NCBI GenBank assembly: GCA_017441705.1
Contig: JAFRWU010000098.1
Location: 1 to 32,457 of the forward strand
Source: Clostridia bacterium
GTDB lineage: Bacteria > Bacillota > Clostridia > Oscillospirales > QAMX01
Direction: 5' to 3'
Length of the DNA: 32,457 nucleotides
Below are positions 10,627 to 29,235 of the stretch, piece after piece. Positions within the stretch are counted from its first letter, which is position 1; the number at the start of each line of letters is the position of its first letter. The translations under genes were made by a program, and so were the position numbers. A model generated the notes under the pieces. It was not told where the DNA came from, searched no databases, and saw only the letters and a program-made list of their open reading frames with translations.

Positions 10627-11727
10627 ATGGAAAAACTGCGTCTGGCCCTGATCGGCCAGGGAAGAAGCGGCAAGGATATCCACGGCGCTTTCTGCCGGAG
10701 CGAAGCAAACACCTTTTTTACCGTCCGCTACGTGGTGGACGCCGACGAGATCAGCCGTGAACGCGCCCTCACGCTTTACCCCGGGTGCGAGACCTTTTCC
10801 GATTACCGCGCGCTTTTTGAAAAGAACGACGTGGATCTGGTGGTCAACGCGTCCTATTCCTATATGCATTATCCCGTCACGCGGGATCTTCTGGAGCACG
10901 GGAAGAACGTCCTGGTGGAAAAGCCTTTCGCGCGCAATCTCTACGAATGCCGCGATCTGATCCGGACGGCGAAGCGGAACGGCGTCCTGCTCGCCGTGTT
11001 CCAGCAGACCTTCCTCGCTCCCTTCTACCTGGAGACCCGGAAAATGCTCGAAAGCGGCGTGCTCGGCCGCGTGGAGCAGATCTCCATCCGCTATTCCGAC
11101 TACGGACGGAGATGGGACTGGCAGACCATGCAGGAGAATCTGGGCGGCAGCGTCTACAACACCGGCCCGCATCCCATCGGGCTCGCCCTGGGATTCCTGG
11201 ATTTCGACCCGCAGGCGCGCGTGGTCTATTCCCGTATCGCATGCGACGTCACCAGCGGCGATGCGGAGGATTACGCGAAGATCCTCTTCGAGGCGCCGGG
11301 CAAGCCTTTGATCGACCTGGAAATCAGCGCGGTCGACCCCTTCTCGCCCTACACGCTGAAGCTCACCGGCACCCGCGGCGCACTTTCGGTCACCTCGTCC
11401 CGCTACGAGCTGCAGTACTGGAAGGAAGAGGAGAATCCCCCGCGTCCCGTGGTCTCCGGGACCCTCCGGAACGAAGATCATCAGCCGGTCTACTGCAGGG
11501 AGGAGCTCCTCTGGCACAAGGAAAGCGGGGAGTTCGCGGGAACGGCCTTCAATTCCGCCGTCGCCTCCTTCTATTCCGATCTCTACGGCGCCCTGACCGA
11601 AGGCAGGCCTCTGCGCGTAACGCCGGACATGGCCGCCGCCGTGATCGCCGTCATCGAAAAGGTTCACGCCGACAATCCCCTTCCCATGCGCTGCTGGCCG
11701 CATGAAGAAAGCGAGGTGCGCCCGTGA
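10627..11727 (+). CDS. Gfo/Idh/MocA-family oxidoreductase (NagBA-linked)
   Basis: A 366-residue NAD(P)-dependent dehydrogenase of the glucose-fructose oxidoreductase/inositol dehydrogenase family. The N-terminal Rossmann fold has GQGRSGK (10–16) and the EKP motif is at 98–100. The C-terminal alpha/beta domain has NTGPHPIG, whose His sits where family members carry the catalytic His. The start is the ATG at 10627 with AAAGGAG upstream. The stop overlaps the nagB start by 4 bases. Being first in an operon with NagB and NagA homologues, it probably oxidises or reduces a hydroxyl of an amino sugar or its glycoside before deacetylation and deamination; this is inferred from context only. Confidence 0.9.
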   Translation: MEKLRLALIGQGRSGKDIHGAFCRSEANTFFTVRYVVDADEISRERALTLYPGCETFSDYRALFEKNDVDLVVNASYSYMHYPVTRDLLEHGKNVLVEKPFARNLYECRDLIRTAKRNGVLLAVFQQTFLAPFYLETRKMLESGVLGRVEQISIRYSDYGRRWDWQTMQENLGGSVYNTGPHPIGLALGFLDFDPQARVVYSRIACDVTSGDAEDYAKILFEAPGKPLIDLEISAVDPFSPYTLKLTGTRGALSVTSSRYELQYWKEEENPPRPVVSGTLRNEDHQPVYCREELLWHKESGEFAGTAFNSAVASFYSDLYGALTEGRPLRVTPDMAAAVIAVIEKVHADNPLPMRCWPHEESEVRP

Positions 11728-12485
11728 GAAGCTTTGCCGTCGACGCCCTGACCGTCGGGATCTACGATTCCCGATCCGAAATGGGAGCGGCCGCCGCGCG
11801 CGACGCGGCCGACGCCGTCCGGAAGGTGCTTTCCGGGAAAGAATTCTGCCATATGATCTTTGCCGCCGCTCCCTCCCAGAACGAGGTGCTCGCTTCTCTC
11901 GCCGCGGACAAGACCATCCCGTGGGAAAGAGTGCGCGCCTTTCATATGGACGAATACGTGGGGCTTTCCCCCACGGCTCCGCAGGGCTTCGGGAATTTCC
12001 TTAGGGAGCGGCTCTTCGACCTTGTTCCCCTTCACGAGGTCCACTATATCGACGGATGGGCCGGGGATCCGGAAGCCTCCTGCGCGGGCTACGCCGCGCT
12101 CCTGGAAAAATACCCGCCCGACGTGGTGATGATGGGGATCGGGGAAAACGGCCACATCGCCTTCAACGATCCCGGCGTCGCCGATTTTCACGATCCGAAA
12201 GCGGTCAAGCCGGTCCCGCTGGACGAGGTCTGCCGCATGCAGCAGGTCCACGACGGATGCTTCGCCTCGCTCGACGAGGTGCCGAAGACCGCCCTGACCC
12301 TGACGGTCCCGACCCTGACCGCCGCCCCGTATCTCTTCTGCGTCGTTCCCGCTCCGACCAAAGCCGAAGCGGTGAAAAAGACGCTTTGCGGTCCGGTGGG
12401 AGAGGCCTGTCCCGCGACCGTCCTTCGCACGCGCCCCGGCGCAAGGATGTATCTGGATCCGGACAGCGCGTCTCTTTTGGAGTGA
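11724..12485 (+). CDS. nagB: Divergent glucosamine-6-phosphate deaminase-like protein
   Basis: A 253-residue NagB-fold protein; NagB converts glucosamine 6-phosphate to fructose 6-phosphate plus ammonia. FHMDEYVG (73–80) holds the general-base Asp (D76), and GIGENGHIAFNDP (138–150) holds the ring-opening His (H144). Departures from the Escherichia coli enzyme are Asn at the Asp141 position, Asp149 in place of Glu148, and AAAPSQ (47–52) where the phosphate-loop glycine/threonine motif normally lies. The phosphate position or the sugar may therefore differ. The start is GTG at 11724–11726, overlapping the previous stop in GTGA, so it is translationally coupled. nagA starts 4 bases after the stop. 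The family is sure; the exact substrate is not. Confidence 0.88.
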   Translation: MRSFAVDALTVGIYDSRSEMGAAAARDAADAVRKVLSGKEFCHMIFAAAPSQNEVLASLAADKTIPWERVRAFHMDEYVGLSPTAPQGFGNFLRERLFDLVPLHEVHYIDGWAGDPEASCAGYAALLEKYPPDVVMMGIGENGHIAFNDPGVADFHDPKAVKPVPLDEVCRMQQVHDGCFASLDEVPKTALTLTVPTLTAAPYLFCVVPAPTKAEAVKKTLCGPVGEACPATVLRTRPGARMYLDPDSASLLE

Positions 12486-12489
12486 TCCT

Positions 12490-13641
12490 ATGGTACAGTG
12501 TTTTCTTTCCGACCGGATCCTATCCGGCGGCGAAATCCTCCGCGGCGCCGTCCGCGCGGAGGACGGCGTGATCCGGGGGATCTTCCCGGAGCCCTTTCCC
12601 GCCGACGAGGTCCTGGACCTCGGCTCTCTCTTTCTCGCGCCGGGCCTCGTCGATCTGCACACCCACGGCGGCGGCGGACATTCCTTTTTGACCGGGGACG
12701 AAAACGAGGTGATCGGCGGATGCCTGTATCATCTCCGCCACGGCGTCACCTCGATCCTTCCCACCCTGTCGGCGGCGCCTTTCCCTGAAATGCGCGAAGC
12801 CGCCGGGGCGATCGACCGTGCCGGGAAAAGCGGTCTATTCCCCGGAAGGATCCTCGGCGTGCACATGGAGGGACCTTATCTCTCTCCCAGGCAGTGCGGC
12901 GCCCAATGCCCGCTTTTCATCACGCCGCCGAAGAAAGAGGAATACGAAGCCCTGATCCGGGACCTTCCCGGCGCGGTCAGGCGGTGGACCTACGCGCCGG
13001 AAAACGATCCCGACGGCGCGTTCTGCCGGTTTCTCCGGGATCACGGCGTCCTGCCCTCCGCCGGACACACCGACGCGGTCTACAAAGACGTAAAAACCGC
13101 GGCGGATAACGGGATGAAGCTGATCACCCATCTGTATTCCTGCACCTCCACCGTCACGCGGGATCACGGCTTTCGCCGTCTGGGCGTGATCGAGTCTGCC
13201 TTTCTTCTGGACGGGATCTTCTGCGAGATCATCGCCGACGGACGGCATCTGCCTCCGGAGCTGATCCGGATGATCCTGAAGATCAAGGGGGAGGACAGGG
13301 TGGCGCTGATTTCCGACAGCCTGGCTCTGGCCGGGACCGGAGAGACCGAGGGCACGATGGCCGGGACCGACTTCATCATCGAGGACGGGGTCTGCAAGCT
13401 GAAAGACCGTTCGGCCTTCGCCGGGAGCATCGCCTCCGGCTTCGATCTGATCCGCGTGATCCGGGACGACTGCGGGATCCCGCTTGCGCGCGCGGTAAAG
13501 ATGATGACCGAGGTGCCGTCGACTCTTCTCGGCCTGCCCGTCGGGAAGCTGGAGCCCGGATACCGGGCCGATCTCATCGCCTTCGACGACGCGCTCCGTC
13601 TCGAGCGCGCCTTCGTGGACGGAGAGCCGGTTTCCTTCTGA
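12490..13641 (+). CDS. nagA: N-acetylglucosamine-6-phosphate deacetylase-like amidohydrolase
   Basis: A 383-residue amidohydrolase-superfamily protein; NagA removes acetate from N-acetylglucosamine 6-phosphate. Metal and catalytic residues are visible: PGLVDLHTHGGGG (H57, H59), HMEGPYLS (E127), AGHTDA (H193), THLYS (H214) and the catalytic Asp in SDSLALAG (D276). Two usual signatures are altered: the KGAH segment after EGP reads CGAQ (136–139), and THLFNAM reads THLYSCT (213–219). The deviations match those in the adjacent nagB, suggesting a co-evolved pair for a related amino sugar. GGAG lies 7 bases before the ATG, and a strong terminator follows. Confidence 0.92.
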   Translation: MVQCFLSDRILSGGEILRGAVRAEDGVIRGIFPEPFPADEVLDLGSLFLAPGLVDLHTHGGGGHSFLTGDENEVIGGCLYHLRHGVTSILPTLSAAPFPEMREAAGAIDRAGKSGLFPGRILGVHMEGPYLSPRQCGAQCPLFITPPKKEEYEALIRDLPGAVRRWTYAPENDPDGAFCRFLRDHGVLPSAGHTDAVYKDVKTAADNGMKLITHLYSCTSTVTRDHGFRRLGVIESAFLLDGIFCEIIADGRHLPPELIRMILKIKGEDRVALISDSLALAGTGETEGTMAGTDFIIEDGVCKLKDRSAFAGSIASGFDLIRVIRDDCGIPLARAVKMMTEVPSTLLGLPVGKLEPGYRADLIAFDDALRLERAFVDGEPVSF

Positions 13642-17026: not shown

Positions 17027-17108
17027 CAGTCATTTTGATTACACCGCCATAATACATATTGACTTCATACCCGCCTCTTGGCTTTTTGTTTTCCCGGCTT
17101 TTTCCGCA

Positions 17109-17137
17109 TTGACGCGCCCGGGTCCGGGTGGTATAAT
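17109..17137 (+). promoter_or_regulatory. Promoter of the DegT–amidohydrolase operon
   Basis: TTGACG (17109–17114) and TATAAT (17132–17137) have a 17-base spacer, 33 bases before the start codon. Five of six and six of six consensus bases suggest strong expression, unless a repressor acts on it. Confidence 0.9.
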
Positions 17138-17170
17138 GAGGGCGATAACGAACGCACGGGAGGTCAGGAT

Positions 17171-18499
17171 ATGATCGAAGACGCTTTGAAAATCCTCGGC
17201 GGTCCGGCGGAGGTCCGGGGCGACGTCCCGAAGGAGCTTTTTGCCTGGCCGTACGTAAACGAGGAGATCGAAAACGCCGTGCTGGACGTGGTCCGGAAAA
17301 ACAAGATGTCCGGCACCGATATCACCGAACAGTTCGAAAAGGCCTTCGCCGCCTGGCAGCAGAGAAAGCTCGGCGTCGCCTACGCCAACGGCACCCTTGC
17401 CCTGCAGGCCGCGATGTTCGCGGTGGGGCTCGGCGCGGGAGACGAGCTGATCTGCCCCACCAAGACCTACTGGGCGTCCTGCCTTTCCGCGTCGCAGCTC
17501 GGCGCGAGCGTGGTGTTCGCCAACGTCCGGCGGGACGATCTGTGCCTGGATCCGGAGGACCTGGAGCGGTGCATCGGCCCGCGGACAAAGGCCGTGATGG
17601 TGGTCCATTACTGCGGACACCCCGCCGATATGGATCCCATCATGGAAATCGCCCGGAAGCACGGCCTCAGGGTGATCGAGGACGTATCCCACGCCCAGGG
17701 CGGCCGGTACAAGGGCCGGATGCTCGGCACCTTCGGCGACGTGGCGGCCATGTCCCTGATGTCCCTGAAGTCCTTCTCCTGCGGAGAGCTCGGCATGCTG
17801 GTCACCGACAAAAGAGAATACTACGAGCGCGCGATGGCCTACTCCCATTACGAACGCAACAACGAAAAATACGTCTATGAAACCAGGGAGCTTCTCCCCT
17901 ATCACAACCTGCCCCTGGGCGGCATGAAGGGCCGCGTCAACCAGATCGCCACCGCCATCGGCCTGATCCGGCTCCGGGATTACGACGAGAGGATCGCCGA
18001 GATCCGCAGGGCCATGAATTACTTCCTGGATCTGATGGAGGGAACGCCGGGCTTCCGCCCCATCCGCGTGGACGAGGCCACCGGCTCCACCATGGCGGGC
18101 TGGTACAGCCCGCAGGCGCTGTACGTCGCCGAAGAGCTGGGCGGTCTGCCCATCGGCCGGTACGCCGAGGCGGTCTCCGCCGAGATCGGCATCCGTCTTT
18201 CCACCGGGGCCAATTTCCCGCTTCATACCCATCCCTATTTCCGCGACATCGATCTTTACCACGCCGGGAAGCCCACGCGGATCCTCTTTGCCGAAAGGGA
18301 CGTGCGGAAGCTGGACGAAGCGCTGAAGGCCTCCGAGGACATCCCCTGCATTTCGATCCCGTGGTTCGTCAAATACCTGCCCGGAGAGATCGAAAAGTAT
18401 GCGGCGGGCTTCAAGAAGGTCTCCGCGCACTACAAGGATCTTCTGGACGGCGCGGAAAACGACGGGACCGGCGGCCACTGGTACGCCGCGGTCAACTGA
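17171..18499 (+). CDS. DegT/DnrJ/EryC1/StrS-type PLP-dependent enzyme, second copy
   Basis: A 442-residue fold-type I PLP enzyme, longer than the copy at 7870–9042 and clearly divergent from it. Motifs are YANGTLALQAAM (71–82, phosphate binding), CPTKTYWAS (95–103), VIEDVSHAQGG (168–178, D171) and SLMSLKSFSCGELGM, in which K200 is the expected PLP lysine. Compared with classical sugar aminotransferases it carries extra C-terminal residues (about 385–442). The ATG has GGGAGGTCAGGAT directly upstream; longer in-frame readings start in the promoter and are wrong. The partner gene is an amidohydrolase 23 bases downstream. The reaction could be transamination or aldol/dehydration chemistry on a sugar; unresolved. 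Confidence 0.9.
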   Translation: MIEDALKILGGPAEVRGDVPKELFAWPYVNEEIENAVLDVVRKNKMSGTDITEQFEKAFAAWQQRKLGVAYANGTLALQAAMFAVGLGAGDELICPTKTYWASCLSASQLGASVVFANVRRDDLCLDPEDLERCIGPRTKAVMVVHYCGHPADMDPIMEIARKHGLRVIEDVSHAQGGRYKGRMLGTFGDVAAMSLMSLKSFSCGELGMLVTDKREYYERAMAYSHYERNNEKYVYETRELLPYHNLPLGGMKGRVNQIATAIGLIRLRDYDERIAEIRRAMNYFLDLMEGTPGFRPIRVDEATGSTMAGWYSPQALYVAEELGGLPIGRYAEAVSAEIGIRLSTGANFPLHTHPYFRDIDLYHAGKPTRILFAERDVRKLDEALKASEDIPCISIPWFVKYLPGEIEKYAAGFKKVSAHYKDLLDGAENDGTGGHWYAAVN

Positions 18500-18522
18500 A
18501 AAACGGCAAAGGAGACGACGGA

Positions 18523-19440
18523 ATGAAAAAGCTTCTGAAAAAAATCGACGTGCACGCTCACGTGATCCTGTTCCAGGAATACGAATTCTCCAAAACCTTC
18601 GTGGTGACTCCCGAGATGCTTCTGGGGATCTACGACGAGATCGGCGTGGACAAGGGCGTCCTTCTTCCCATCACGTCGCCCGAAGCGCACGCCGGGCTGG
18701 TGCTTCCCAACGGCGCCACCCGCGCCGTGGTGGAGAAATATCCCGACCGGTTCTACTGGTTCTGCAACGTGGATCCCCGGTCGCTGGACAACACCGATCA
18801 CACCGATTTCACGGCCCTTCTCGACCACTTCAAAAGGCTCGGCGCCAAGGGTATGGGCGAATTGACCGCCAACCTCTACGTCGACGATCCGAAAATGGAC
18901 AACATGTTCTCCTATATGGCGGCGGCCGGCCTTCCGGTGACGATCCATATCGCGCCGGAGCCCGACGGATACTACGGCGTCGTGGACGATCTGGGGCTTC
19001 CCAGGCTTGAGAAGATGCTCCGAAAGCATCCCGATCTGAAGATCTTCGGCCATTCCCAGCCCTTCTGGGCCGAGATCGACGCAGGCCTCACCCGGGCGAA
19101 CCGCAACGATTACCCCACCGGCAAGGTCACCGAGGGAAGGCTCGGCAAGCTGATGCGGGAATATCCCAATCTCTACTGCGATATGTCGGCGGGCAGCTGC
19201 TACAACGCCATGACCCGCGATCCGGAGTACGCTTACCGGTTCATCGAGGAGTTCGGCGACCGGATGATGTACGCCATCGACGTGTGCCATCCCGAAAACC
19301 GCCAGATCCGCAATATGGTCAGGTGGCTGGACGAATCCTACGAAAAGGGATATATCTCCGAAAAGAATTACCGCGGCATCTGCCGTGAAAACGCCATCCG
19401 CATCCTCGGCCTCGACGCGCCGAAGGAAGTGTGGAAATAA
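18523..19440 (+). CDS. Amidohydrolase-related TIM-barrel protein (amidohydrolase 2 family)
   Basis: A 305-residue cytoplasmic metal-dependent hydrolase, decarboxylase or lactonase of the amidohydrolase-2 family. Probable metal ligands and catalytic residues are DVHAH (H11, H13), TIHIAPE (H142), FGHSQPFW (H177) and YAIDVCHP (D253), in the order typical for the family. Length is normal. The ATG at 18523 has AAAGGAG nine bases upstream. It forms a two-gene operon with a DegT-type PLP enzyme and is closed by a strong terminator. Family members cleave lactones, amides or aromatic carboxylates, so the substrate cannot be assigned; with a sugar PLP enzyme, a sugar lactone or amide is one guess. Confidence 0.88.
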   Translation: MKKLLKKIDVHAHVILFQEYEFSKTFVVTPEMLLGIYDEIGVDKGVLLPITSPEAHAGLVLPNGATRAVVEKYPDRFYWFCNVDPRSLDNTDHTDFTALLDHFKRLGAKGMGELTANLYVDDPKMDNMFSYMAAAGLPVTIHIAPEPDGYYGVVDDLGLPRLEKMLRKHPDLKIFGHSQPFWAEIDAGLTRANRNDYPTGKVTEGRLGKLMREYPNLYCDMSAGSCYNAMTRDPEYAYRFIEEFGDRMMYAIDVCHPENRQIRNMVRWLDESYEKGYISEKNYRGICRENAIRILGLDAPKEVWK

Positions 19441-19507: not shown

Positions 19508-20710
19508 TCAATCGCCGATATGGAGCCGGACGCCCGCGTTTCGAAGCTTTTCCTGCACCAGTCCGACCGGAAGGGAAGCAAGGCTTTCCCCCCGGAGCGC
19601 GGCCAGCGCCGCGGCGGCTCCCGCCGCCTCGCCCGAAAGAGCGCAGACCGGGATCACGCGCACCAGTTCCCATCCGTCGCCCCCGGCCGAGATCACCCGC
19701 CCCGCGGCGGCGATATTGGGATACGCCGGATGGAAAAGCGTGCCGTAGGGCAGCTCGAACCGTCTGCCCGCCCGGCGGAAATCGCCGAAGCGCCCGACGC
19801 TTTCGGGAACCCGTTTCCCTTCCTCCTCCCCGGTGAGCGTGACCTTTCCCACGATGCGGCGGATCTTGCGGTACTGCGGCATCGTGGGGATCATGGTGAG
19901 ATCGAAGGAGGATTTGTCCCATCCGCGGATTTTTTCGAACAGGCGGCCCTTCGCCTCGGCGAGATAGCGGTTCTCCTCGTCGGAGGTGATCCCGTGAAAC
20001 TTTTCGACCTCCGCGGGATGACCGTGACCCCGGAGATCGCTCCCCACCGAGATCCACTGACGCAGGTCCTTCATATCGTGCGTCTCGTCGTGATCCTTCA
20101 GGGTCTTCCGGTCGAAGCCGTGGGCGACGTAGGTCAGGAAGCTTTCGCCCTCCTCGGTGGGGATCCCGGCGCGATGCGCGCACGACGCGTCGCCGGTGGC
20201 GTCCACCACGCACCCCGCGGGATAGAATTCCCGGCCGGATACGGTCTCGGTCATGACGCCGAGGCATCTGTTTCCGTCCATCACCGGCCATACCGCCAGC
20301 GTATCGAAGCGAAGCGCGGCGCCGCTTTCCCGGACGAATCCGTCCAGCGCCAGGGAAAAGACGCCGGGGGAATAATGCGACGAAAAGCGTCCGTCGCGGC
20401 GGGCGTTGTCTCCCCTGCCGCCCCATTTCGCCGGGAGATCCTCATAGCAGTATCGGACCGAAAGGCGGATCAGCTCCTCCCCGATCCCGCAGACCATCTG
20501 CGTTCCCTCGCCGTCGCAGAGCGGCTCGTACCAGCTGATCAGCCCCACGGTGGCGAGCCCGCCGAGGTTGACCTGCTTTTCCAGGAGCAGGGTCTTCGCG
20601 CCGTTCCGGGCGGCGGAGACCGCGGCGGCCACCCCCGCGATCCCGCCGCCGACAACGACGACGTCATAGCTTTCTCTGACCGACACCTGCCGGGTATCCT
20701 TGAATTCCAT
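19508..20710 (-). CDS. FAD-dependent oxidoreductase (PF12831-like)
   Basis: A 400-residue flavoprotein. VVVVGGGIAGVAAAVSA (17–33) is the dinucleotide-binding loop, followed by the acidic end of beta 2 (LLLEK, 41–45) and NLGGLATVG (48–56). Near the C-terminus are AAAGRVISAGGDGW and CALSGEAAGAAAA, the second FAD-contact region. No signal peptide or membrane segment is seen. The ATG at 20708–20710 follows GGAGTG and lies two bases after the GRE stop, so it is last in the seven-gene operon. It may dehydrogenate the substrate or reduce the product of the radical reaction. Electron partners are not visible nearby. Confidence 0.9.
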   Translation of the reverse strand: MEFKDTRQVSVRESYDVVVVGGGIAGVAAAVSAARNGAKTLLLEKQVNLGGLATVGLISWYEPLCDGEGTQMVCGIGEELIRLSVRYCYEDLPAKWGGRGDNARRDGRFSSHYSPGVFSLALDGFVRESGAALRFDTLAVWPVMDGNRCLGVMTETVSGREFYPAGCVVDATGDASCAHRAGIPTEEGESFLTYVAHGFDRKTLKDHDETHDMKDLRQWISVGSDLRGHGHPAEVEKFHGITSDEENRYLAEAKGRLFEKIRGWDKSSFDLTMIPTMPQYRKIRRIVGKVTLTGEEEGKRVPESVGRFGDFRRAGRRFELPYGTLFHPAYPNIAAAGRVISAGGDGWELVRVIPVCALSGEAAGAAAALAALRGESLASLPVGLVQEKLRNAGVRLHIGD

Positions 20711-20712
20711 CT

Positions 20713-22932
20713 TTACACTCCTTCCAGAAAGCGATCCACCACGAGCTGACGGAAGCGCGGCGACAGCGACGCAAAGTAGGCCGTGAAGCCGGTGACGCGC
20801 ACCACCAGATCCGGGTAGAGGTCGGGATTTTGATGAGCCGCGAAGAGCTTTTCCTTGTCCAGAACGTTGATATTGATCAGGGTCCCGCCCCGGTCGAAAT
20901 GCGTTTTGATCAGCCGCTCCACCAGCTCGACGCCGCCCTCCTCCAGGCCGACGCCGGGGTCGAACTCCAGCTGAAGCGGCGCGGTGTTGCCCCAGCCGCA
21001 CTGCACCGAGGCGATGCCGTTGGACTGCGCGGTAGGCGCGCCGTCCCGCCGGAAGCCGGGATTGGGGTTGGCGCCGTGGGAAATCGGTTCCCCGGCCTTG
21101 CGGCCGTTGGGGGTGGCGCCGACCGCCGCGCCGTATTCGATGGTGCGCGCCCAGCTGAACCAGCCGGGGATCAGCCTGCGTCCCGCCGGCATTTCCTGCC
21201 GGCGTACGGTTTCCACCCACAGATCGGTGATCCTTTTCGCCCAGCGGTCGGAAGCCGTGTTCCCGCCGCAGTATTTCGGGGCCGAGGCCAGGATCGCGCG
21301 CGTCCGCGCGCCTCCCTCTCCCTCGAAGTTTTCCCGCAGGGCCCGGAAGACCCGGTCCCAGGTCAGAACGCCCTCCTTCTCCACTCTCGTCTCCAGCGCG
21401 CCGAAGGAATCCGCGACCACAGCAAGCCCCGCGCCGTCCACGCCGACGGTGTAGAGCCCGGCGCACTGCGAGATATCCAGCCCTTTTTCCAGGGTGTTCC
21501 GCATCATCAGGTTCATGACCAGCTCCGGCGTGACCTCGGCCACGTGGTCGATGTGAAGATTGATCCCCGCCGCCGTCGCCTCCACGGCCTTCCGGAGATG
21601 CTCTCCCAAAAGGGTGAAAAGCTTCTCCGTCGAAGGCTCCTTTTCCTTTTCCAGATCCCCGATCGCCACCTCCATGACCCGGGCGACGTTGATCTTTACC
21701 GTGTCGTTCATGGGGAATTCCACCCCCGGCACGCACATCCAGTGACATCCGACCGCGATGCGCTTCCGCGCGATCTCCTTCGGAACGCCGTTTTTCATAT
21801 AGCCTTCCAGAAGGTTTTTGTCCGAGCAGAAGCGCGGCCATCCGTTTTTATACCGGAACAGACAGGCCACCGCTTCCCGGAGAAACGCGGGATCACAGTT
21901 TTCGTGGACCCTGACCGTGAGATTGGCCGAGATATCGATGGCGGCCGCCGCTTCCAGGATCAGCCAGGAAAGCCGGTTGGTCAGATCCCGGTCGTTTTCG
22001 TCCACGCCCGAGATCTGATAATAGTGCGGATCGATCAGAAGCAGATCGGCGATCAGGAATCTGGCCGTTTCGTCGTCCAGGATCCCTTTTTCGCGGTCTC
22101 GCTCATAATACGGCAGCAGGACCGTGTCCAGCTGGAACCCCGCGCCGTCGCGGGTGTAGACCCTGGCGGCGCAGTTGAAATACGCCACCCACTGGCAGGC
22201 CTCCCGGAAGGTTTCCGGCTTTCCCGTGCGGACCGCGAGATTGGTCTTCAGCATTTCTTCCAGATTTTCCCGGATCTCGGGGCGGGTCTCGATTTCCAGA
22301 AGCCTCTGGATCTCCTCGATATGGCGGTCGATAAAGCGGATGATCGCACGGACGCAGACTTCCTCCGCGTCGTAAAACGCCTCTCTGCCGGGATTCAGGG
22401 CGCGGTAATGCGCGATCTTTTCCAGAAACCCTCCGAATCCGAGCGCCAGACCGATGGTATAATCGCAGGCCAGATGCGCGTCGCTGTCGATCCCGCTCTG
22501 GATGTTGTAAAGCTTCTGGATCGGCTTCAGATCGTCGTATGGGAACCGTTTTTCATCCCATCTTTTGCTCCATTCGACGGTCACGCCGGCGAGGTCCTCC
22601 TCCGTGACCTGCTTTTTGCGCCATGCGGGGAAATAGTGCAGATCTCCCCGGTAGTTCACCAGCATATCCCGCCAGCGGCCGGCCAGCATCTCCAGAGGAT
22701 CCACGTAAGGCGGATGCGCGTCCATCACCCTGGCAAAATTCTCGCTCATGCCCGCAAGCCCGTAAAAGCTGCGGTTTTCGCTGGTATAGAGCGGCGTCAC
22801 ACGGTAGCCGGGCGGCAGCGGCACGGTGCCGAAATCGTCCAGATCGGTGTAACCGTTCTGACTCCGTTTTTCCAGCGTATGGCGGATCTTGGTCTCCCGC
22901 AGCGCCTTCAGTCTATCCTCGTAAGTCAGCAT
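20713..22932 (-). CDS. Glycyl radical enzyme of unrecognised subfamily
   Basis: A 739-residue pyruvate-formate-lyase-type glycyl radical enzyme. The C-terminal radical loop reads VVRVTGFTAYF (710–720), making G715 the radical glycine, 24 residues from the end. The thiyl cysteine is in AVGCHWMC (393–400), most likely C396. In diol dehydratase, choline lyase and hydroxyproline dehydratase types the motif is GCxE with a catalytic Glu; here that position is Trp398, and a second Cys follows at 400. It is therefore neither a clear dehydratase nor a PFL with adjacent Cys-Cys. The ATG lies inside the activase gene (20-base overlap), after GGAGG. It is oxygen-labile, so an anaerobic lifestyle follows. 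The substrate is unknown; context suggests a keto-sugar or cyclitol. Confidence 0.93.
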   Translation of the reverse strand: MLTYEDRLKALRETKIRHTLEKRSQNGYTDLDDFGTVPLPPGYRVTPLYTSENRSFYGLAGMSENFARVMDAHPPYVDPLEMLAGRWRDMLVNYRGDLHYFPAWRKKQVTEEDLAGVTVEWSKRWDEKRFPYDDLKPIQKLYNIQSGIDSDAHLACDYTIGLALGFGGFLEKIAHYRALNPGREAFYDAEEVCVRAIIRFIDRHIEEIQRLLEIETRPEIRENLEEMLKTNLAVRTGKPETFREACQWVAYFNCAARVYTRDGAGFQLDTVLLPYYERDREKGILDDETARFLIADLLLIDPHYYQISGVDENDRDLTNRLSWLILEAAAAIDISANLTVRVHENCDPAFLREAVACLFRYKNGWPRFCSDKNLLEGYMKNGVPKEIARKRIAVGCHWMCVPGVEFPMNDTVKINVARVMEVAIGDLEKEKEPSTEKLFTLLGEHLRKAVEATAAGINLHIDHVAEVTPELVMNLMMRNTLEKGLDISQCAGLYTVGVDGAGLAVVADSFGALETRVEKEGVLTWDRVFRALRENFEGEGGARTRAILASAPKYCGGNTASDRWAKRITDLWVETVRRQEMPAGRRLIPGWFSWARTIEYGAAVGATPNGRKAGEPISHGANPNPGFRRDGAPTAQSNGIASVQCGWGNTAPLQLEFDPGVGLEEGGVELVERLIKTHFDRGGTLININVLDKEKLFAAHQNPDLYPDLVVRVTGFTAYFASLSPRFRQLVVDRFLEGV

Positions 22933-23698
22933 AACGCCTAAGTTCCTCCATTTTTCCGCGGTCCGGGACCGGAAAGCCGGCCGGGGGCAGCCCGAGCGCT
23001 CTCCGTTTATCCTCCCCGAGCGGGTGATAAGGCAAAAGCTCGTATCGTATGACGTTCCGGAGAGATCTCAGAAAATCCCGGGTCTTCTCCACGTTTTCCC
23101 GGTCGTCGTTCACGCCCGGGATCACCGGCGTCCGGGCAATCACCGGCGTGCCGAGCCGGTCCAGGAGTTTGAAATGGGAAAGGATCTCCCGGTTGGAAAC
23201 GCCGGTATACGCTCTGTGCCGCTCCTCATCCCATATTTTCAGGTCGGCCATCACCAGATCCGCCTCTCCCAGGATCTCCTCGTCGAAAAGGATCAGCGAC
23301 GTTTCGATCGCCGTGCCTATCCCTTCCCGTTTCGCGAGGCGGATCAGTTCACCGAGCGCCTCTCTCTGCGCCAGCGGTTCGCCGCCGGAAAAAGTGACGC
23401 CGCCTTCTTCCGCATAGTAGTCGCGGTCAAGCAGCACGGTTTCCAGGATCTCTTCAGCCGTCATATCCCGGCCGCAGACCACGCGCGCGCCGGAAAAACA
23501 TCCTTCGCTGCATTTTCCGCATCCGATGCATTTTTCGGGATAATAAAGCGTCTCTTTTTCAAAGGAGATGCATTCCGGGTTGTGACACCAGGCGCATCTC
23601 AGGGGACAGCCCTTGAAAAAAACGGTGGTCCGGATCCCGGGGCCGTCGTGGATCGACGCCCTCTGGATGTCGGCGATCCTGGCCTTTACGCTTCCCAT
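22913..23698 (-). CDS. Glycyl radical enzyme activase, radical SAM
   Basis: A 261-residue radical SAM enzyme that abstracts hydrogen from the radical glycine of the downstream GRE. It has the CxxxCxxC motif CPLRCAWC (31–38) for the SAM-binding 4Fe-4S cluster, GGEPL (105–109), and a short ferredoxin-like insert CIGCGKCSEGC (57–67). Most activases of dehydratase-type GREs carry two such four-Cys insert clusters and are about 300 residues; this one has one, giving a shorter protein. The ATG at 23696–23698 follows GGAGGTGCC and overlaps the upstream gene by 13 bases. The stop, TAG, lies inside the GRE start region. Tight overlaps make it the dedicated partner. Confidence 0.94.
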   Translation of the reverse strand: MGSVKARIADIQRASIHDGPGIRTTVFFKGCPLRCAWCHNPECISFEKETLYYPEKCIGCGKCSEGCFSGARVVCGRDMTAEEILETVLLDRDYYAEEGGVTFSGGEPLAQREALGELIRLAKREGIGTAIETSLILFDEEILGEADLVMADLKIWDEERHRAYTGVSNREILSHFKLLDRLGTPVIARTPVIPGVNDDRENVEKTRDFLRSLRNVIRYELLPYHPLGEDKRRALGLPPAGFPVPDRGKMEELRRYADLRG

Positions 23699-24801
23699 GG
23701 CACCTCCGCGGCGGCGCCTGACGCGGCCGAGCGCTCCGCAGCGTCCAGAAGGGCCGCGACCCGCAGATTGAATTCCAGCGTGACCGGGCGCAAAAGCGGC
23801 AGGCCGTTCCTTCCGGCATAGGCGTAGTGATCGGGAAGATTCGCGATGTGAGCGGGCTCGGGAAGGAGCGGGAGCTCCACCTCCTCCCCGGTCAGGGACA
23901 TGGCCTTCACGTCCTTTTCCGGGGTCGTATAGATCACCCCGTCGGCGCAGCAGAAAACCGGTCCCGTGGGCAGGAATCTCTGCGGCATGGTCCAGGTGCC
24001 TTCGATCACGCCGTAGGAATCCCGGTAGGCGATCACCGCCGCCATGTTGTCCGGGACCGCCCCCGGCATGAAGGGCGTCCCGTAGTTGCCGGCGAAGGCG
24101 CGCACCTCCAGCGGCCTGTCTTCCGCCGGCCGCGCCCAGGTATTGTAAAAGAAGCCGTAGCAGCCGATATCCAGGAACGCGCCGCCTCCGGTCCCCTCCC
24201 GGTACCACCAGGTGGAAGCGCGTTCTTCGTCGGTCATCTCCTCCGCCGCGGCCTCCACGCCGCGGTGTCTCGCGCCTTTCCCGAGCGGACCGGTGTGCCC
24301 GTTGATGTAATAGACCTTCTGAAGCCTGCCCATCACGCCGCTCTCCAGCGCCGCCAGCTCCCGGTGGACGTAAGGCCGCCAGATCACCGGCCAGTTGACC
24401 ATGGCCTCCACGCCGTTTTTCGCCGTGACGGTGCGGATGGATTCGGCTTCTTCCAGATTCAGCGCCATGGGTTTTTCGATCACCACGCCGACGCCGCGCT
24501 CCGCGCACTCCTTCACGACTTCCGCCTTCCGGTCGTTTTCGGTCAGGATAAAGGCCAGATCGGGCTTCAGCCGGTCCAGCATCGCCCGGTAATCGGCGTC
24601 CGGCGCGATCCCGGTGAGACGTCTGACGTTTTCCAGGTTCCAGGCGCGGGTATAGCGCGCCCGGGTCTTTTCCGGGACCGCCGGCGGAAGATCGGCGAAT
24701 CCCGCCAGGACAAAGCCCGGCGCGGACGTGATATACGACGCGATCTCGTTTACGTGCATGTGCGCAAAGCCGATGATACAGGCTCTGGTTCTGTCTTTCA
24801 T
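23686..24801 (-). CDS. Gfo/Idh/MocA-family oxidoreductase, GFxHxH variant (fourth gene of the GRE operon)
   Basis: A 371-residue member of the Gfo/Idh/MocA dehydrogenases. EKP lies near residue 109 and the C-terminal domain reads GGGAFLDIGCYGFF. The usual GxGxxG loop is replaced by GFAHMH (11–16), and Tyr follows Cys where many members have the catalytic His (DIGCY versus DxGxH). The gene at 25975–27057 shares both traits, so the two are paralogues. The ATG follows GGAGGAGATCCGC. The 3' end overlaps the activase start. It probably transfers hydride to or from a sugar-like hydroxyl; the substrate is unknown. Confidence 0.88.
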   Translation of the reverse strand: MKDRTRACIIGFAHMHVNEIASYITSAPGFVLAGFADLPPAVPEKTRARYTRAWNLENVRRLTGIAPDADYRAMLDRLKPDLAFILTENDRKAEVVKECAERGVGVVIEKPMALNLEEAESIRTVTAKNGVEAMVNWPVIWRPYVHRELAALESGVMGRLQKVYYINGHTGPLGKGARHRGVEAAAEEMTDEERASTWWYREGTGGGAFLDIGCYGFFYNTWARPAEDRPLEVRAFAGNYGTPFMPGAVPDNMAAVIAYRDSYGVIEGTWTMPQRFLPTGPVFCCADGVIYTTPEKDVKAMSLTGEEVELPLLPEPAHIANLPDHYAYAGRNGLPLLRPVTLEFNLRVAALLDAAERSAASGAAAEVPWEA

Positions 24802-24843: not shown

Positions 24844-25959
24844 TCAAAGCTCCGCGGCCGCAACCTCTCTTCCGAGCTCCGCCGAACGGTAAAAGCATTC
24901 GATCGCCCGCGTGACCTCGAGGTTTTCCTCCTCGGTGATCAGATAGGGTCTTTTGCCCTGCAGGGTATCCATGATGTTTTCATACATATACCGGTGCTGT
25001 TCGAAGGGGACGCCCTTGTAGGCGCCGTTGTCGAACCACTTGAGCTTTGTCTCCGCCTGATAGGTGCCCACGTTGCGGTACAGGGTCTCGTTGTTCAGGG
25101 AAAGCCCGCCCCGGTCGCCGCAGATAACCATGTCGAGATTGGTGGTCGGCAGATTGATCGCCCAGGAGAACTTGAAATTCACCGACATGCCGGTATCGAG
25201 GCGCATGAAGCCGGCGGCGAATTCCTCCACGTTGAATTCCCGGTAATCATAGGGCCGGGGCGTAAAGGTGCCGGCGTAGGCGCCGCTTTCCGCCAGGCTC
25301 AGAAGGACCTCCTCGCCTTTGTTCCCGATCTTCCGGTAGGCGCTTCCGGAAACCGAAACCACCTTCGGTCCGCCGACGATCCAGAGAAGCGAATCGATCA
25401 GATGAACGCCGAGATCGCAGAAGGGGCCGCCGTAATTGTGCTCTTTCATGTGGAACATGCCCCAGGTGGGGATGCCGTACCGGCGGATAAAGGCGATGTC
25501 CGAATAATAGATCTCGCCGAGCTCGCCGTTCTCCACCATCCGGCGGCTGTGCTGCATATAGTTGCGCCAGCGCATGCACTGGCAGGGGAAAAGCATTTTC
25601 CCGCACGCCTTCGCCGTATCCCACATCTCCTTCGCATCGGCGACGGTGACGGCGATGGGCTTTTCGCAGGCCACGTGCGCTCCCGCGCGCAGCGCCTTGA
25701 TCGTCCATTCCTTGTGATAGACGTTGGGCGTACAGACCGCCACGAAATCGGGATGCATTTCGTCCAGCATCTTCTGCGGATCGGCGTACCAGTTGGGGAC
25801 GTGATGGCGCGCAGCCGTCTCCGCCGCCGCCTCGGGGCGGATGTCGGCGACGCCGACGACCTCCGCAAGTCCTGCGTCCCGCAGCGGCTTCAAGGCGGGA
25901 AAATGCGCCTGATTGGCGATCATGCCGGCGCCGATCACGGCGACTCTCAGTTTTTCCAT
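24844..25959 (-). CDS. Gfo/Idh/MocA-family oxidoreductase, classical type (third gene of the GRE operon)
   Basis: A 371-residue dehydrogenase with the classical nucleotide loop GAGMIA (10–15), EKP (99–101) and a C-terminal active-site segment CDLGVHLIDS with the expected His. Of the four family members in the operon this one keeps every canonical motif, so it is the most likely true NAD(P)-dependent sugar or cyclitol dehydrogenase. The ATG follows GGAGGAAGAGTAT, 15 bases after the preceding stop. Confidence 0.92.
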   Translation of the reverse strand: MEKLRVAVIGAGMIANQAHFPALKPLRDAGLAEVVGVADIRPEAAAETAARHHVPNWYADPQKMLDEMHPDFVAVCTPNVYHKEWTIKALRAGAHVACEKPIAVTVADAKEMWDTAKACGKMLFPCQCMRWRNYMQHSRRMVENGELGEIYYSDIAFIRRYGIPTWGMFHMKEHNYGGPFCDLGVHLIDSLLWIVGGPKVVSVSGSAYRKIGNKGEEVLLSLAESGAYAGTFTPRPYDYREFNVEEFAAGFMRLDTGMSVNFKFSWAINLPTTNLDMVICGDRGGLSLNNETLYRNVGTYQAETKLKWFDNGAYKGVPFEQHRYMYENIMDTLQGKRPYLITEEENLEVTRAIECFYRSAELGREVAAAEL

Positions 25960-25974
25960 ATACTCTTCCTCCGT

Positions 25975-27057
25975 TCAGTTTTCCTTTTCTGTCGATTCAA
26001 AAGCGCCCGTGAAGCTCGCGCGGATCCCGGCGTCCAGCGCCGCGAGCGCGTCGAGGTTGAAGTCCGGAGCAAGAAGCTCGTAAAGCGGTTCACCGGACGT
26101 CAGATGCCGGTACAGATGCTTTGCCAGATCGTCGGTGGTGGCGTTCCAGGGAGCGGCGGTATAGACTTCGTCCGGTTCGGTGTTCTGATGGCTGAAACGC
26201 CGGTATACTTTGACCTCGGAACGGTACCGGTCGGCGACGATCACACCTTCGGAGCCGTAAACCACGGGCCCGGTCGGCACCTCTCCGTTGTTCAGGGTCG
26301 ACCAGGAGCCTTCGATCAGCGCGACCCCGTCTCCGAAATCCAGCGTATACGCGGTATAGTCCTCCACGTCCGAAAAGGGCAGGAAGAAGTTTTTCCGGAT
26401 GCCCGCCACCCGCTCCGCCCTCCTGCCGAAGAGCCACGTGGCCAGCGTGCAGCCATAGCAGGCATAATCGCAGGCCGAGCCTCCGCCGAGCTCCCTGTGA
26501 TACCAGAAGAGCTTCTGCATTTCCTCTTCGGAAAGCGTGCCGGGATCGTAGGGGCCGACGGTGGCCGGACTCCGGTAATGTACCCGCAGGATCCTGCCGA
26601 TCTTCCCTTCGGCCGTCAGCTCCCTGACCTTCCGGAAGGAGTCGAACCACGCGACCGGCCAGTTGACCGCAAGGGTGACGCCCGCGCGCCGCGCGGCCCG
26701 CGCCATGCGCAGACCGTCTCCGTAACGGATGGCCATCGGTTTTTCCACCACGGTGGGGATCTTTCTTCCCAGCGTTTCCTCCGCGATATCGGCGTAACGT
26801 GCGATGTTGGAGCAGACCACGGCGAGATCCGGCTTCCGGTCCAGAAGCTCCCGCCAGTCGCGAACCAGCGCGAGAGGGCGCTGCCCCAGCACCCGCTTTT
26901 TTCGCTCGGCCGGATCCTCCGGGATCTCTCCTTCCCGCGGCGGGAACTCCGCGCACCCCAGAAGCTCATACCGGTCGGGGTAACGGGAGAAGACGTCGTA
27001 CATGCTGACCGCATGCACGTGTTCGAAGCCCAGCATGGCGACACGCAGTTTTCTCAT
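25975..27057 (-). CDS. Gfo/Idh/MocA-family oxidoreductase, GFxHxH variant (second gene of the GRE operon)
   Basis: A 360-residue family member with GFEHVH (10–15) in place of the GxGxxG loop, EKP at 105–107, and ACDYACYGC where DxGxH is usual. It shares these departures with the gene at 23686–24801. The start is the ATG at 27055–27057, after AAAGGGGAG; longer readings run into the preceding gene. The gap to that gene is 19 bases. The altered loop still fits a His/Phe-rich nucleotide pocket, but whether it binds NAD(P) normally is open. Confidence 0.88.
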   Translation of the reverse strand: MRKLRVAMLGFEHVHAVSMYDVFSRYPDRYELLGCAEFPPREGEIPEDPAERKKRVLGQRPLALVRDWRELLDRKPDLAVVCSNIARYADIAEETLGRKIPTVVEKPMAIRYGDGLRMARAARRAGVTLAVNWPVAWFDSFRKVRELTAEGKIGRILRVHYRSPATVGPYDPGTLSEEEMQKLFWYHRELGGGSACDYACYGCTLATWLFGRRAERVAGIRKNFFLPFSDVEDYTAYTLDFGDGVALIEGSWSTLNNGEVPTGPVVYGSEGVIVADRYRSEVKVYRRFSHQNTEPDEVYTAAPWNATTDDLAKHLYRHLTSGEPLYELLAPDFNLDALAALDAGIRASFTGAFESTEKEN

Positions 27058-27076
27058 TTCCCGGTCTCCCCTTTCC

Positions 27077-28183
27077 TTACAGACGGTTCTCAAAAGTCGT
27101 TTTGAGGTCGACAACGCGTCCCTCTTCCGCAGCGGCGGGGATCGCGCACATGATCTCCAGCACGTGCCGTGCATGCTCCGGCGAGAGGCGCGGCGGGCGG
27201 TCGCCCTCGATCGATTCGATCAGATCCCGGAGGCAGCAGCACTGGCTCCGAAGCTTTTCCGGCGGATCCGCGCCGGGCATGGGTTCCATCCACCCCCGAA
27301 TCCCCAGCTCCGGGCTGTCGAGATAGACCTCCGGCACCGGGTTCTGCATATACGGCCTGGTAAAGGCGATCGTTCCGCGGTCGCCGAAAATCTCAAGCTG
27401 AAGCGCCTTCGACGCCTTCTGGGAAAAGCCGCTGTCCACCAGCGCCATTCTGCCGTCCCCGAAATCGAGCGTGATCAGGTACTGATCGGGGATCCGGTCC
27501 GCCCGGATCTCCTTCCCGTCAAACGCGCCGGAACGCACCGTGCGGCGGGGCGTGGTGATCTTCGCCATGCAGCCCACGCGCCTCGCGGGGCCGAAAAGCG
27601 CCGTCACGATCTGCAGTCCGTGCACGCCCATATCCACCAGCGCGCCCGCGCCCGGTTCAAAAAACCAGCTGGGATCGGCGTCCCGGTACTGGAAGTATTC
27701 GGGCCCGCCGTGGGACATGTTGCATTTGGCGTAATAGACGTTCCCGATCGCCCCGTCCGCCATCCACCTCCGCGCCAGGTTCAGATCGTAGCGCATGGGG
27801 TGGATCGGGGCGCACACGAAGCGGGCTCCGTTCGCCTTCGCCGTTTCGATCTGGAGCGTGAGCCGTTCCACGTCCGGCGCCGCGGGCTTCTGGGAGATCA
27901 GATGCTTTCCCGCCGAGAGGACGGCCATATTGATCTCGTGATGCGCCTGGATCGACGCGGCGTCGATCGCGATATCGAAATCGCAGGACGCAAGGAGCTC
28001 GTGAACGTCATGGTAAGCCGCGGGGATGCCGTATCGACGGCAGGCGGCCTCCGCCCGTTCGAAAACGACGTCCGCGGCCGCAACGCAGACCGCGTCCGCT
28101 TCTTTGTCAATATTGGGAAAATACTGTCCGTTCGCAAAGGAACCGCAGCCGACGACGGCCACCTTCCAGGTTTTTTTCGCCAC
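27077..28183 (-). CDS. Gfo/Idh/MocA-family oxidoreductase (first gene of the GRE operon)
   Basis: A 368-residue dehydrogenase: nucleotide loop VGCGSFANGQ (11–20), QKP at 98–100 where most relatives have EKP, and DMGVHGLQI containing the expected His. The start is GTG (28181–28183) with GGAGGGAGACCT directly upstream. It is first in the seven-gene operon, about 30 bases from the operon's -10 box, and divergent from the AraC-type regulator. The Lys of QKP is retained, so it is probably active. Confidence 0.9.
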   Translation of the reverse strand: MAKKTWKVAVVGCGSFANGQYFPNIDKEADAVCVAAADVVFERAEAACRRYGIPAAYHDVHELLASCDFDIAIDAASIQAHHEINMAVLSAGKHLISQKPAAPDVERLTLQIETAKANGARFVCAPIHPMRYDLNLARRWMADGAIGNVYYAKCNMSHGGPEYFQYRDADPSWFFEPGAGALVDMGVHGLQIVTALFGPARRVGCMAKITTPRRTVRSGAFDGKEIRADRIPDQYLITLDFGDGRMALVDSGFSQKASKALQLEIFGDRGTIAFTRPYMQNPVPEVYLDSPELGIRGWMEPMPGADPPEKLRSQCCCLRDLIESIEGDRPPRLSPEHARHVLEIMCAIPAAAEEGRVVDLKTTFENRL

Positions 28184-28241: not shown

Positions 28242-28268
28242 GCACAATGGTGCCGAAAAAGTGCACAA
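28242..28268. promoter_or_regulatory. Putative AraC-type operator: two GCACAA half-sites
   Basis: GCACAA occurs at 28242–28247 and 28263–28268, 21 bases apart (two helical turns), in the same orientation. The first half-site is one base from the operon's -35. The pair also lies in the 5' leader of the regulator gene. This is the geometry of AraC-family activator sites that also repress their own gene. Confidence 0.5.
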
Positions 28269-28293
28269 AATAAGCCTGTCCGGAGGGATCGCC

Positions 28294-29235
28294 ATGCTGT
28301 ATACCGTCGACGTCCGGAAACTGCCCCTGGTCACCAGCTGTTATCGCATTGAAAGAAGGACCGTCTGGAGCGCCGTGGATCCGGACAATATCCTGGTTCT
28401 GGTCCACGAAGGCGCCTGCGTTTTCCGGATCGAAAGCAACGAAACGACCGTAAACAAGGGAGAAGCTTTTCTGATCCCCGCCGGTCAGGAATACGTCCGG
28501 CGTCCCGCGCCGGGCACCTCCGCAGTCTTCACCTACCTGCATTTCCGCACGGCCTCTCCCCTGATCGAGACCGAAGCTTCCCGGGTCCGTTCCTGGCTGG
28601 AAGAGCGGAAAACCCTGTTGACGTCGGATGCGATCGCAGAGCCGGGCGCCGTATTTGAACCGCTGGATACGCTCTGCATCGGAACGCATACGCGTTTCGG
28701 CGGAGATGCGGAAGCTCTGGCCGGACGGATCGCGGAGGAAAGCGTGAAGCGGCACGTCGAAAGCGGGTACTTCGCGTCGCTTTTCCTGGCGGAGCTCCTC
28801 GGTCTTCTGATGCGCACCGCGGCGGCCGAGCTCCTTTCCGGTTTCGACGCCGCGCCCCGTACGCCGGTGCCTCCCCGGCTCCGGGAGGCGGTCCTGTATA
28901 TTCATCAGAACCTGAAAAGGACGATCACTCTCGCCGATCTGGGCCGGGCTGCCGGCGTGTCTCCTCAGCACGTGATCCGCCTTTTCCGCACCGGGCTCGG
29001 CACGACCCCTCTGCAGTACGTCAACCGTCTGAAAATCCAGTACGCCAAGCATCTGATCCAGTTCAGCCCTTCGCTGTCCATGAAGGAGATCGGCTACGAG
29101 CTGGGATTCGAGAATCCTCACTACTTCTCCCGCCTCTTCACCAAGCTTGCGGGAGAGAGTCCCCGCCGGTTCCGGCGGCGCGTCGAGTCCTACGATACGG
29201 GCCGGGACGGAACCGGCGCGGAAAAAACGCCCTGA
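28294..29235 (+). CDS. AraC-family transcriptional regulator
   Basis: A 313-residue regulator. The N-terminal part (about 10–90) reads as a cupin-type sensing domain (KGEAFLIPAGQEY, 55–67), and the C-terminal AraC/XylS DNA-binding domain (about 198–297) has two helix-turn-helix units, LADLGRAAGVSPQHVIRLF and MKEIGYELGFENPHYFSRLF. The ATG at 28294 follows GGAGGGATCGCC. It is divergent from the glycyl-radical operon, with overlapping promoters, so it is very likely that operon's regulator. The inducer, presumably a sugar-like molecule bound by the cupin, is unknown. Confidence 0.95.
   Translation: MLYTVDVRKLPLVTSCYRIERRTVWSAVDPDNILVLVHEGACVFRIESNETTVNKGEAFLIPAGQEYVRRPAPGTSAVFTYLHFRTASPLIETEASRVRSWLEERKTLLTSDAIAEPGAVFEPLDTLCIGTHTRFGGDAEALAGRIAEESVKRHVESGYFASLFLAELLGLLMRTAAAELLSGFDAAPRTPVPPRLREAVLYIHQNLKRTITLADLGRAAGVSPQHVIRLFRTGLGTTPLQYVNRLKIQYAKHLIQFSPSLSMKEIGYELGFENPHYFSRLFTKLAGESPRRFRRRVESYDTGRDGTGAEKTP

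Follow-up and report, generated by a model that had tools for sequence, protein, structure and literature searches.

Eliminases of the glycyl radical enzyme (GRE) superfamily conserve a CXE motif in the Cys loop (PMC7077986, PMC8473560). One gene in the window, by which we mean the whole stretch of 32,457 nucleotides analyzed here, encodes a GRE with Trp in place of this Glu, which raises the question of whether the protein is a working enzyme and, if so, what chemistry it would carry out. Read on the minus strand, positions 20713–22932 translate into 739 residues closing on a stop codon; the plus-strand frame over the same positions encodes no GRE. The Cys loop reads RIAVGC(396)H(397)W(398)MC(400)VPG and the radical loop VVRVTG(715)FTAYF. 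Thus, the motif and numbering put forward in an earlier sequence-only reading (Cys396, His397, Trp398, Cys400 and Gly715) are correct on the minus-strand translation. The intact gene and its neighbors are listed in Table 1.

Table 1 Features of the GRE locus and nearby genes in the window.
Feature	Position	Strand	Remarks
Gfo–NagB–NagA cluster	10627..13641	plus	NagB and NagA named by eye from sequence
DegT aminotransferase and amidohydrolase pair	17078..19440	plus	
FAD-dependent oxidoreductase	19508..20710	minus	PF12831; begins 2 bases past the GRE stop
GRE	20713..22932	minus	739 aa; Cys396 (catalytic by homology), His397, Trp398, radical Gly715
Radical SAM activating enzyme	22913..23698	minus	261 aa; TIGR02494, 274.7 bits (cut-off 174.35)
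Gfo/Idh/MocA oxidoreductase 4 (Gfo4)	23686..24801	minus	Pfam PF01408; conserved beside activase or GRE
Gfo/Idh/MocA oxidoreductase 3 (Gfo3)	24844..25959	minus	Best-conserved neighbor, 73–80% in most full-operon loci
Gfo/Idh/MocA oxidoreductase 2 (Gfo2)	25975..27093	minus	
Gfo/Idh/MocA oxidoreductase 1 (Gfo1)	27077..28183	minus	First gene of the operon
AraC-type regulator	28261..29235	plus	Divergent; Pfam HTH_18 and HTH_AraC; position conserved

By every feature tested the protein is a GRE, one of the oxygen-sensitive radical enzymes. It has an RVxG loop, a catalytic Cys, a PFL-like barrel and a cognate radical SAM activase, all features of the superfamily, and it matched the Pfam PFL-like (PF02901, 1e-78) and Gly_radical (PF01228, 3.2e-13) models above their cut-offs. 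None of the NCBIfam equivalogs (CutC, HypD, HpsG, HpfG, HPAD, IAD, PFL1 and PflD-like) was reached, all scoring far below cut-off, and the best NCBIfam score was 266.9 bits to TIGR01774 (cut-off 678.2). Aminoacyl radical enzymes, in which Ala, Ser or Thr replaces the radical Gly (PMC11528403), were excluded, since Gly715 is intact.

We compared the Cys loop across an alignment of 114 GRE rows, drawn from the window's genome (11 matches), contigs of its relatives (22 loci), family members and reference GREs (E. coli PflB, YbiW and PflD, a Klebsiella CutC and a Cetobacterium HypD). The residue two positions after the catalytic Cys (Cys+2) is Glu in 66 rows and Trp in 30, followed by Ser (4, PFL), Gln (4), Gly (4), Asp (3), Thr (2, both from the same gene) and Val (1). 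Five Trp rows from outside the alignment set (L146 and L169–L172) likewise carry Trp at this position together with Glu470 and Asn687, so the Trp is real and far beyond chance. The intervening Cys+1 residue is Asn in 24 of the Trp rows, His in five and Gln in one. We found no Trp at Cys+2 among the aligned reference GREs, a set that leaves out the benzylsuccinate-synthase type, nor in the GRE literature found.

Cys396, Trp398 and Thr714 are present in 30/30 Trp rows. The sequence-only reading had also suggested a shifted catalytic Cys, and the window GRE does possess a second Cys four residues further on, at position 400. However, this position is Cys in only 15/30 Trp rows and Ala, Ser or Asp in the other 15, including those of both marine isolates, while Cys396 is invariant and shares its column with the catalytic Cys of all reference GREs. 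We therefore rejected catalysis by Cys400, which has next to no chance of being right; by homology, Cys396 is the catalytic residue. The same reading regarded the RVTGF radical loop as unusual. This does not apply to the Phe, as ordinary CxE GREs often carry Phe, Tyr, Trp or Val after the radical Gly, but it does apply to Thr714, which precedes the radical Gly in all Trp rows and in about 5% of CxE rows.

Further residues set the Trp rows apart. Asp410 occurs in 29/30 of them, compared to about 18% of CxE rows, and Glu470 in 29/30, compared to 3/63 (about 5%). Position 687 is Asn in 29/30 Trp rows, whereas Gln occupies it in 56/60 scored CxE rows and Asn in 0%. Among the residues that the Trp clade keeps and that CxE GREs rarely show are Glu405, Asp410, Glu470, His619, Asn687 and Thr714. 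Mapping Trp398–Glu470 covariation onto the tree gave two pairs at most, with Trp having arisen once or twice. Thus, the association of Trp, Glu470 and Asn687 amounts to one evolutionary event and is not proof of contact.

To place these proteins, we built the tree from an alignment stripped of its Cys-loop columns. Of the 30 Trp rows, 29 form one clade with SH-aLRT support of 98, rising to 100 for the 28 rows that remain without its deepest member, L116. A mixture-model tree of 48 rows, also excluding the Cys-loop columns, recovered the Trp clade at 99/94 (14 rows) and 100/100 (13 rows). All five reference GREs lie outside. The phylogenetic check proposed with the sequence-only reading, carried out here with five reference GREs, thus resolves the Trp group as a distinct and strongly supported clade. 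The claim that neither the eliminase CXE nor the PFL Cys-Cys pattern fits also holds, and the site marks that clade. The thirtieth Trp row, L073 (GCNWPD), sits on a long branch elsewhere on the tree and lacks Glu470 and Asn687; its Trp may be an independent gain.

The Trp clade occurs in Clostridia MAGs recovered from the guts of herbivores and termites, in a Lentisphaeria MAG and, as a partial sequence, in an Alistipes MAG. Two cultured marine Bacteroidota, Flammeovirga kamogawensis and Persicobacter psychrovividus, also carry clade GREs on plasmids (43–45% identity over the full length). One termite-gut Oscillospiraceae genome contains at least five paralogs (L031 and L169–L172). The departure of the active-site motif from the known one might indicate a decayed or regulatory pseudoenzyme. 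We consider this very improbable, given that the Gly loop, Cys396 and the activase are retained across phyla at 36–75% identity and that genes of the operon overlap. Our literature search, covering GREs with Gfo/Idh/MocA proteins, in Planctomycetes, in the rumen and expanded in uncultivated lineages, found nothing on the Trp clade.

The AlphaFold model of the window GRE, calculated from 23 rows, has a mean pLDDT of 85 and a pTM of 0.88, with the Cys-loop block at a pLDDT of only about 71–79. In a Foldseek search against the PDB all matches listed were GREs, among them propanediol dehydratase, PflD, glycerol dehydratase (GD), CutC and HypD at TM scores of about 0.80–0.84, and the best fold matches are eliminases and PflD. 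These matches bear on whether the protein is an eliminase at all. The Trp clade resembles PFL in lacking the Glu at Cys+2 and in carrying Asn, not Gln, at position 687, and might instead comprise a PFL-like C–C lyase, a decarboxylase, or an epimerase or isomerase, with a sugar acid or a keto sugar as substrate. We judge this unlikely, since the window GRE has no Cys-Cys pair, PFL lies far away on the tree, and the fold search places eliminases first, with PFL absent among the 50 matches listed.

We then considered which pocket residues could take the place of the missing Glu. In a HMMER alignment to GD, Cys396, Trp398, Asp410 and His153 correspond to GD Cys433, Glu435, Asp447 and His164. In the glycerol dehydratase structure (1R9D), His164 and Asp447 reportedly contact glycerol. 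The alignment indicates that the position of GD His281 is not retained in the window GRE. In the column of His153, CutC has Asp and HypD has His, consistent with the common substrate site described for CutC-Asp216 and HypD-His160 (PMC8473560). Asp410 lies at Cys+14, the same position as His514 of indoleacetate decarboxylase (IAD), which has been put forward as an alternative base (PMC6181972). With His153, Asp410 and Glu470 present, the pocket has acids, and new chemistry does not follow directly from the lack of a base at Cys+2; judging from the alignment, another pocket acid could serve as the base, a situation close to the one that the sequence-only reading itself named as telling against it. 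A role for Trp398 in packing or in stacking on a sugar is more likely than one in catalysis. We know of no substrate contact made by the loop of Glu470 in the solved eliminases, and the Glu of PFL at position 470 may reflect a chance alignment.

The GRE is the sixth gene in a tight minus-strand run, Gfo1–Gfo2–Gfo3–Gfo4–activase–GRE, in which some genes overlap. The activase contains a CxxxCxxC motif and one 4-Cys ferredoxin motif, and its gene shares 20 bases with the start of the GRE gene. In this activase and those of L012–L033 about 80 residues separate CxxxCxxC from GGEP and include a single CxxCxxCxxxC motif, which probably corresponds to one auxiliary [4Fe-4S] cluster. In most of the other GRE activases seen, among them the marine Trp-clade ones, this stretch is about 110 residues long and contains two motifs.

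The order AraC–Gfo1–Gfo2–Gfo3–Gfo4–activase–GRE repeats in six loci (L015, L016, L019, L021, L028 and L029), and in L027 without a detected Gfo2. In the Lentisphaeria locus (L025) four Gfo genes adjoin the GRE, with activase and AraC undetected there. In a variant operon (L012, L013, L014, L022, L032 and L033) a different Gfo and a TIM-barrel gene of hydroxypyruvate-isomerase-like type replace Gfo1–Gfo2; not every one of these loci yielded both AraC and activase. The FAD-dependent oxidoreductase was rejected as an obligate partner, as L019 and L023 are the only other loci where it adjoins the GRE. The Gfo proteins are closest to inositol, levoglucosan and glycoside 3-dehydrogenase models, with scores far under the cut-offs, and the window GRE operon contains no PTS gene. 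A sister-clade locus in the same genome encodes an aldehyde dehydrogenase, a Gfo protein and a HAD phosphatase, followed by the GRE. In Flammeovirga, the GRE and activase lie near SusC/D, sulfatase, GH130 and GH47 genes, the setting of a polysaccharide locus. Together, the gene neighbors suggest the breakdown of a modified sugar or sugar alcohol. After the GRE and activase of Flammeovirga comes a small cupin-like protein. Both marine Bacteroidota have such a small protein immediately behind the GRE (L137:17146-17556 and L142:17145-17564), cupin-like in L137 and similar there to the solved protein CA_C3497 (3d0j). The two plus-strand gene groups near the window operon (Table 1, first two rows) possibly belong to amino-sugar or aminocyclitol metabolism.

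Taken as a whole, we put at about even odds (roughly 0.5) the reading that this is a working GRE of an uncharacterized clade, catalyzing radical elimination or ring/C–O cleavage on a sugar, polyol or cyclitol derivative without the CXE base. The activase would generate a glycyl radical at Gly715, which would pass to Cys396 as a thiyl radical. This thiyl radical would take hydrogen from a carbinol carbon of the substrate, itself presumably tied to the Gfo/Idh/MocA steps, and an adjacent hydroxyl, ring ether or glycosidic oxygen would then be lost, as in the GRE eliminases. The proton transfer performed elsewhere by the CXE Glu would fall to another conserved acid, with Asp410 or Glu470 the best candidates, or would not be needed if the substrate were already oxidized.

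In a rival scheme, the Gfo proteins would supply an oxidized sugar, for example a 3-keto sugar, with Trp398 stacking on the ring and the GRE performing a base-free radical elimination that would be new among GREs. The carbonyl would stabilize the radical and lower the pKa, so that a carboxylate base at Cys+2 would be dispensable. The four Gfo/Idh/MocA dehydrogenases, the hydroxypyruvate-isomerase-like TIM barrel of the variant operon and the clade-wide loss of the acid at Cys+2 are in keeping with such a scheme. However, the Gfo enzymes could act before or after the GRE, and the conserved Asp410 and Glu470 argue for a continued need of an acid, which leaves the base-free scheme a contender that we nonetheless think improbable. 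Elimination or cleavage without the CXE base, by whichever route the proton moves, is the reading that we prefer.

More broadly, and with more doubt than confidence, we propose that the Trp clade represents an undescribed GRE reaction class. Its members would perform base-independent or relocated-base radical cleavage of oxidized sugars or cyclitols, in conjunction with Gfo/Idh/MocA dehydrogenases, and would be recognizable by the signature Cys-[Asn/His/Gln]-Trp with Glu470 and Asn687, in hosts carrying up to about 25 different GREs per genome. The replacement of Glu by Trp in a clade of gut and marine bacteria offers a testable case for how far GRE catalysis depends on a base at Cys+2, and the operons are a lead to an unknown anaerobic sugar route. 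The same bacterial family holds a large GRE pool with several other residues at this position.

In that pool, the window's genome (G000) has 11 GREs, and the family genomes G014, G015 and G020 yield up to 23–28 PF02901 matches in 2.5–3.7 Mb, some of them fragments of one gene. The GREs of the window's genome and its relatives (L001–L011 and L054–L133) spread over many deep clades that are separate from the reference GREs. Other GREs without Glu at Cys+2 have CNQ (L002, L058, L087 and L119), CWG (L003, L090 and L113), CQD (L062 and L092), CWD (L071), CMG (L065), CCT (L129), CVV (L047) or CSQ (L165). Their residue at Cys+2 is thus Gln, Gly, Asp, Thr or Val, and on the tree several of these GREs make up supported groups of their own.

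Comparison with the known GRE classes indicates where the window protein stands. It shares with eliminases such as GD the fold (TM of about 0.80–0.82), the catalytic Cys, the Gly loop and the radical SAM activase, and with GD in particular the His of strand β1 (His153, GD His164) and the Asp at Cys+14 (Asp410, GD Asp447). Unlike the eliminases GD, PD, CutC, HypD and IslA, it lacks CXE, with Trp398 at Cys+2, carries Asn where they conserve Gln at position 687, and has gained Glu470 and His619. PflB likewise has no Glu at Cys+2 and has Asn at 687, but the window GRE has GCHW in place of adjacent Cys-Cys and is distant from PflB in both tree and fold search. HPAD and IAD are defined by Glu1 at Cys+2 (PMC6181972), which they keep where the window GRE has Trp398, and no aromatic-acid context is seen in its neighborhood; the candidate base of IAD at Cys+14 is nevertheless comparable to Asp410 (PMC6181972). 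YbiW and PflD share a sugar-alcohol-type substrate setting, and PflD is among the nearest proteins by profile, structure and sequence. These two enzymes cleave 1,5-anhydroglucitol- and 1,5-anhydromannitol-6-phosphate, substrates phosphorylated by the PTS (PMC12441222), and so provide a precedent for GRE action on sugar-type substrates. However, they retain CIE/CVE, the Trp clade branches deeply and apart from them on the tree, and four Gfo/Idh/MocA dehydrogenases, not a PTS, accompany the window GRE. Thus, on its sequence features the window GRE falls outside the CXE-defined eliminase class, while it may still work in an eliminase-like manner.
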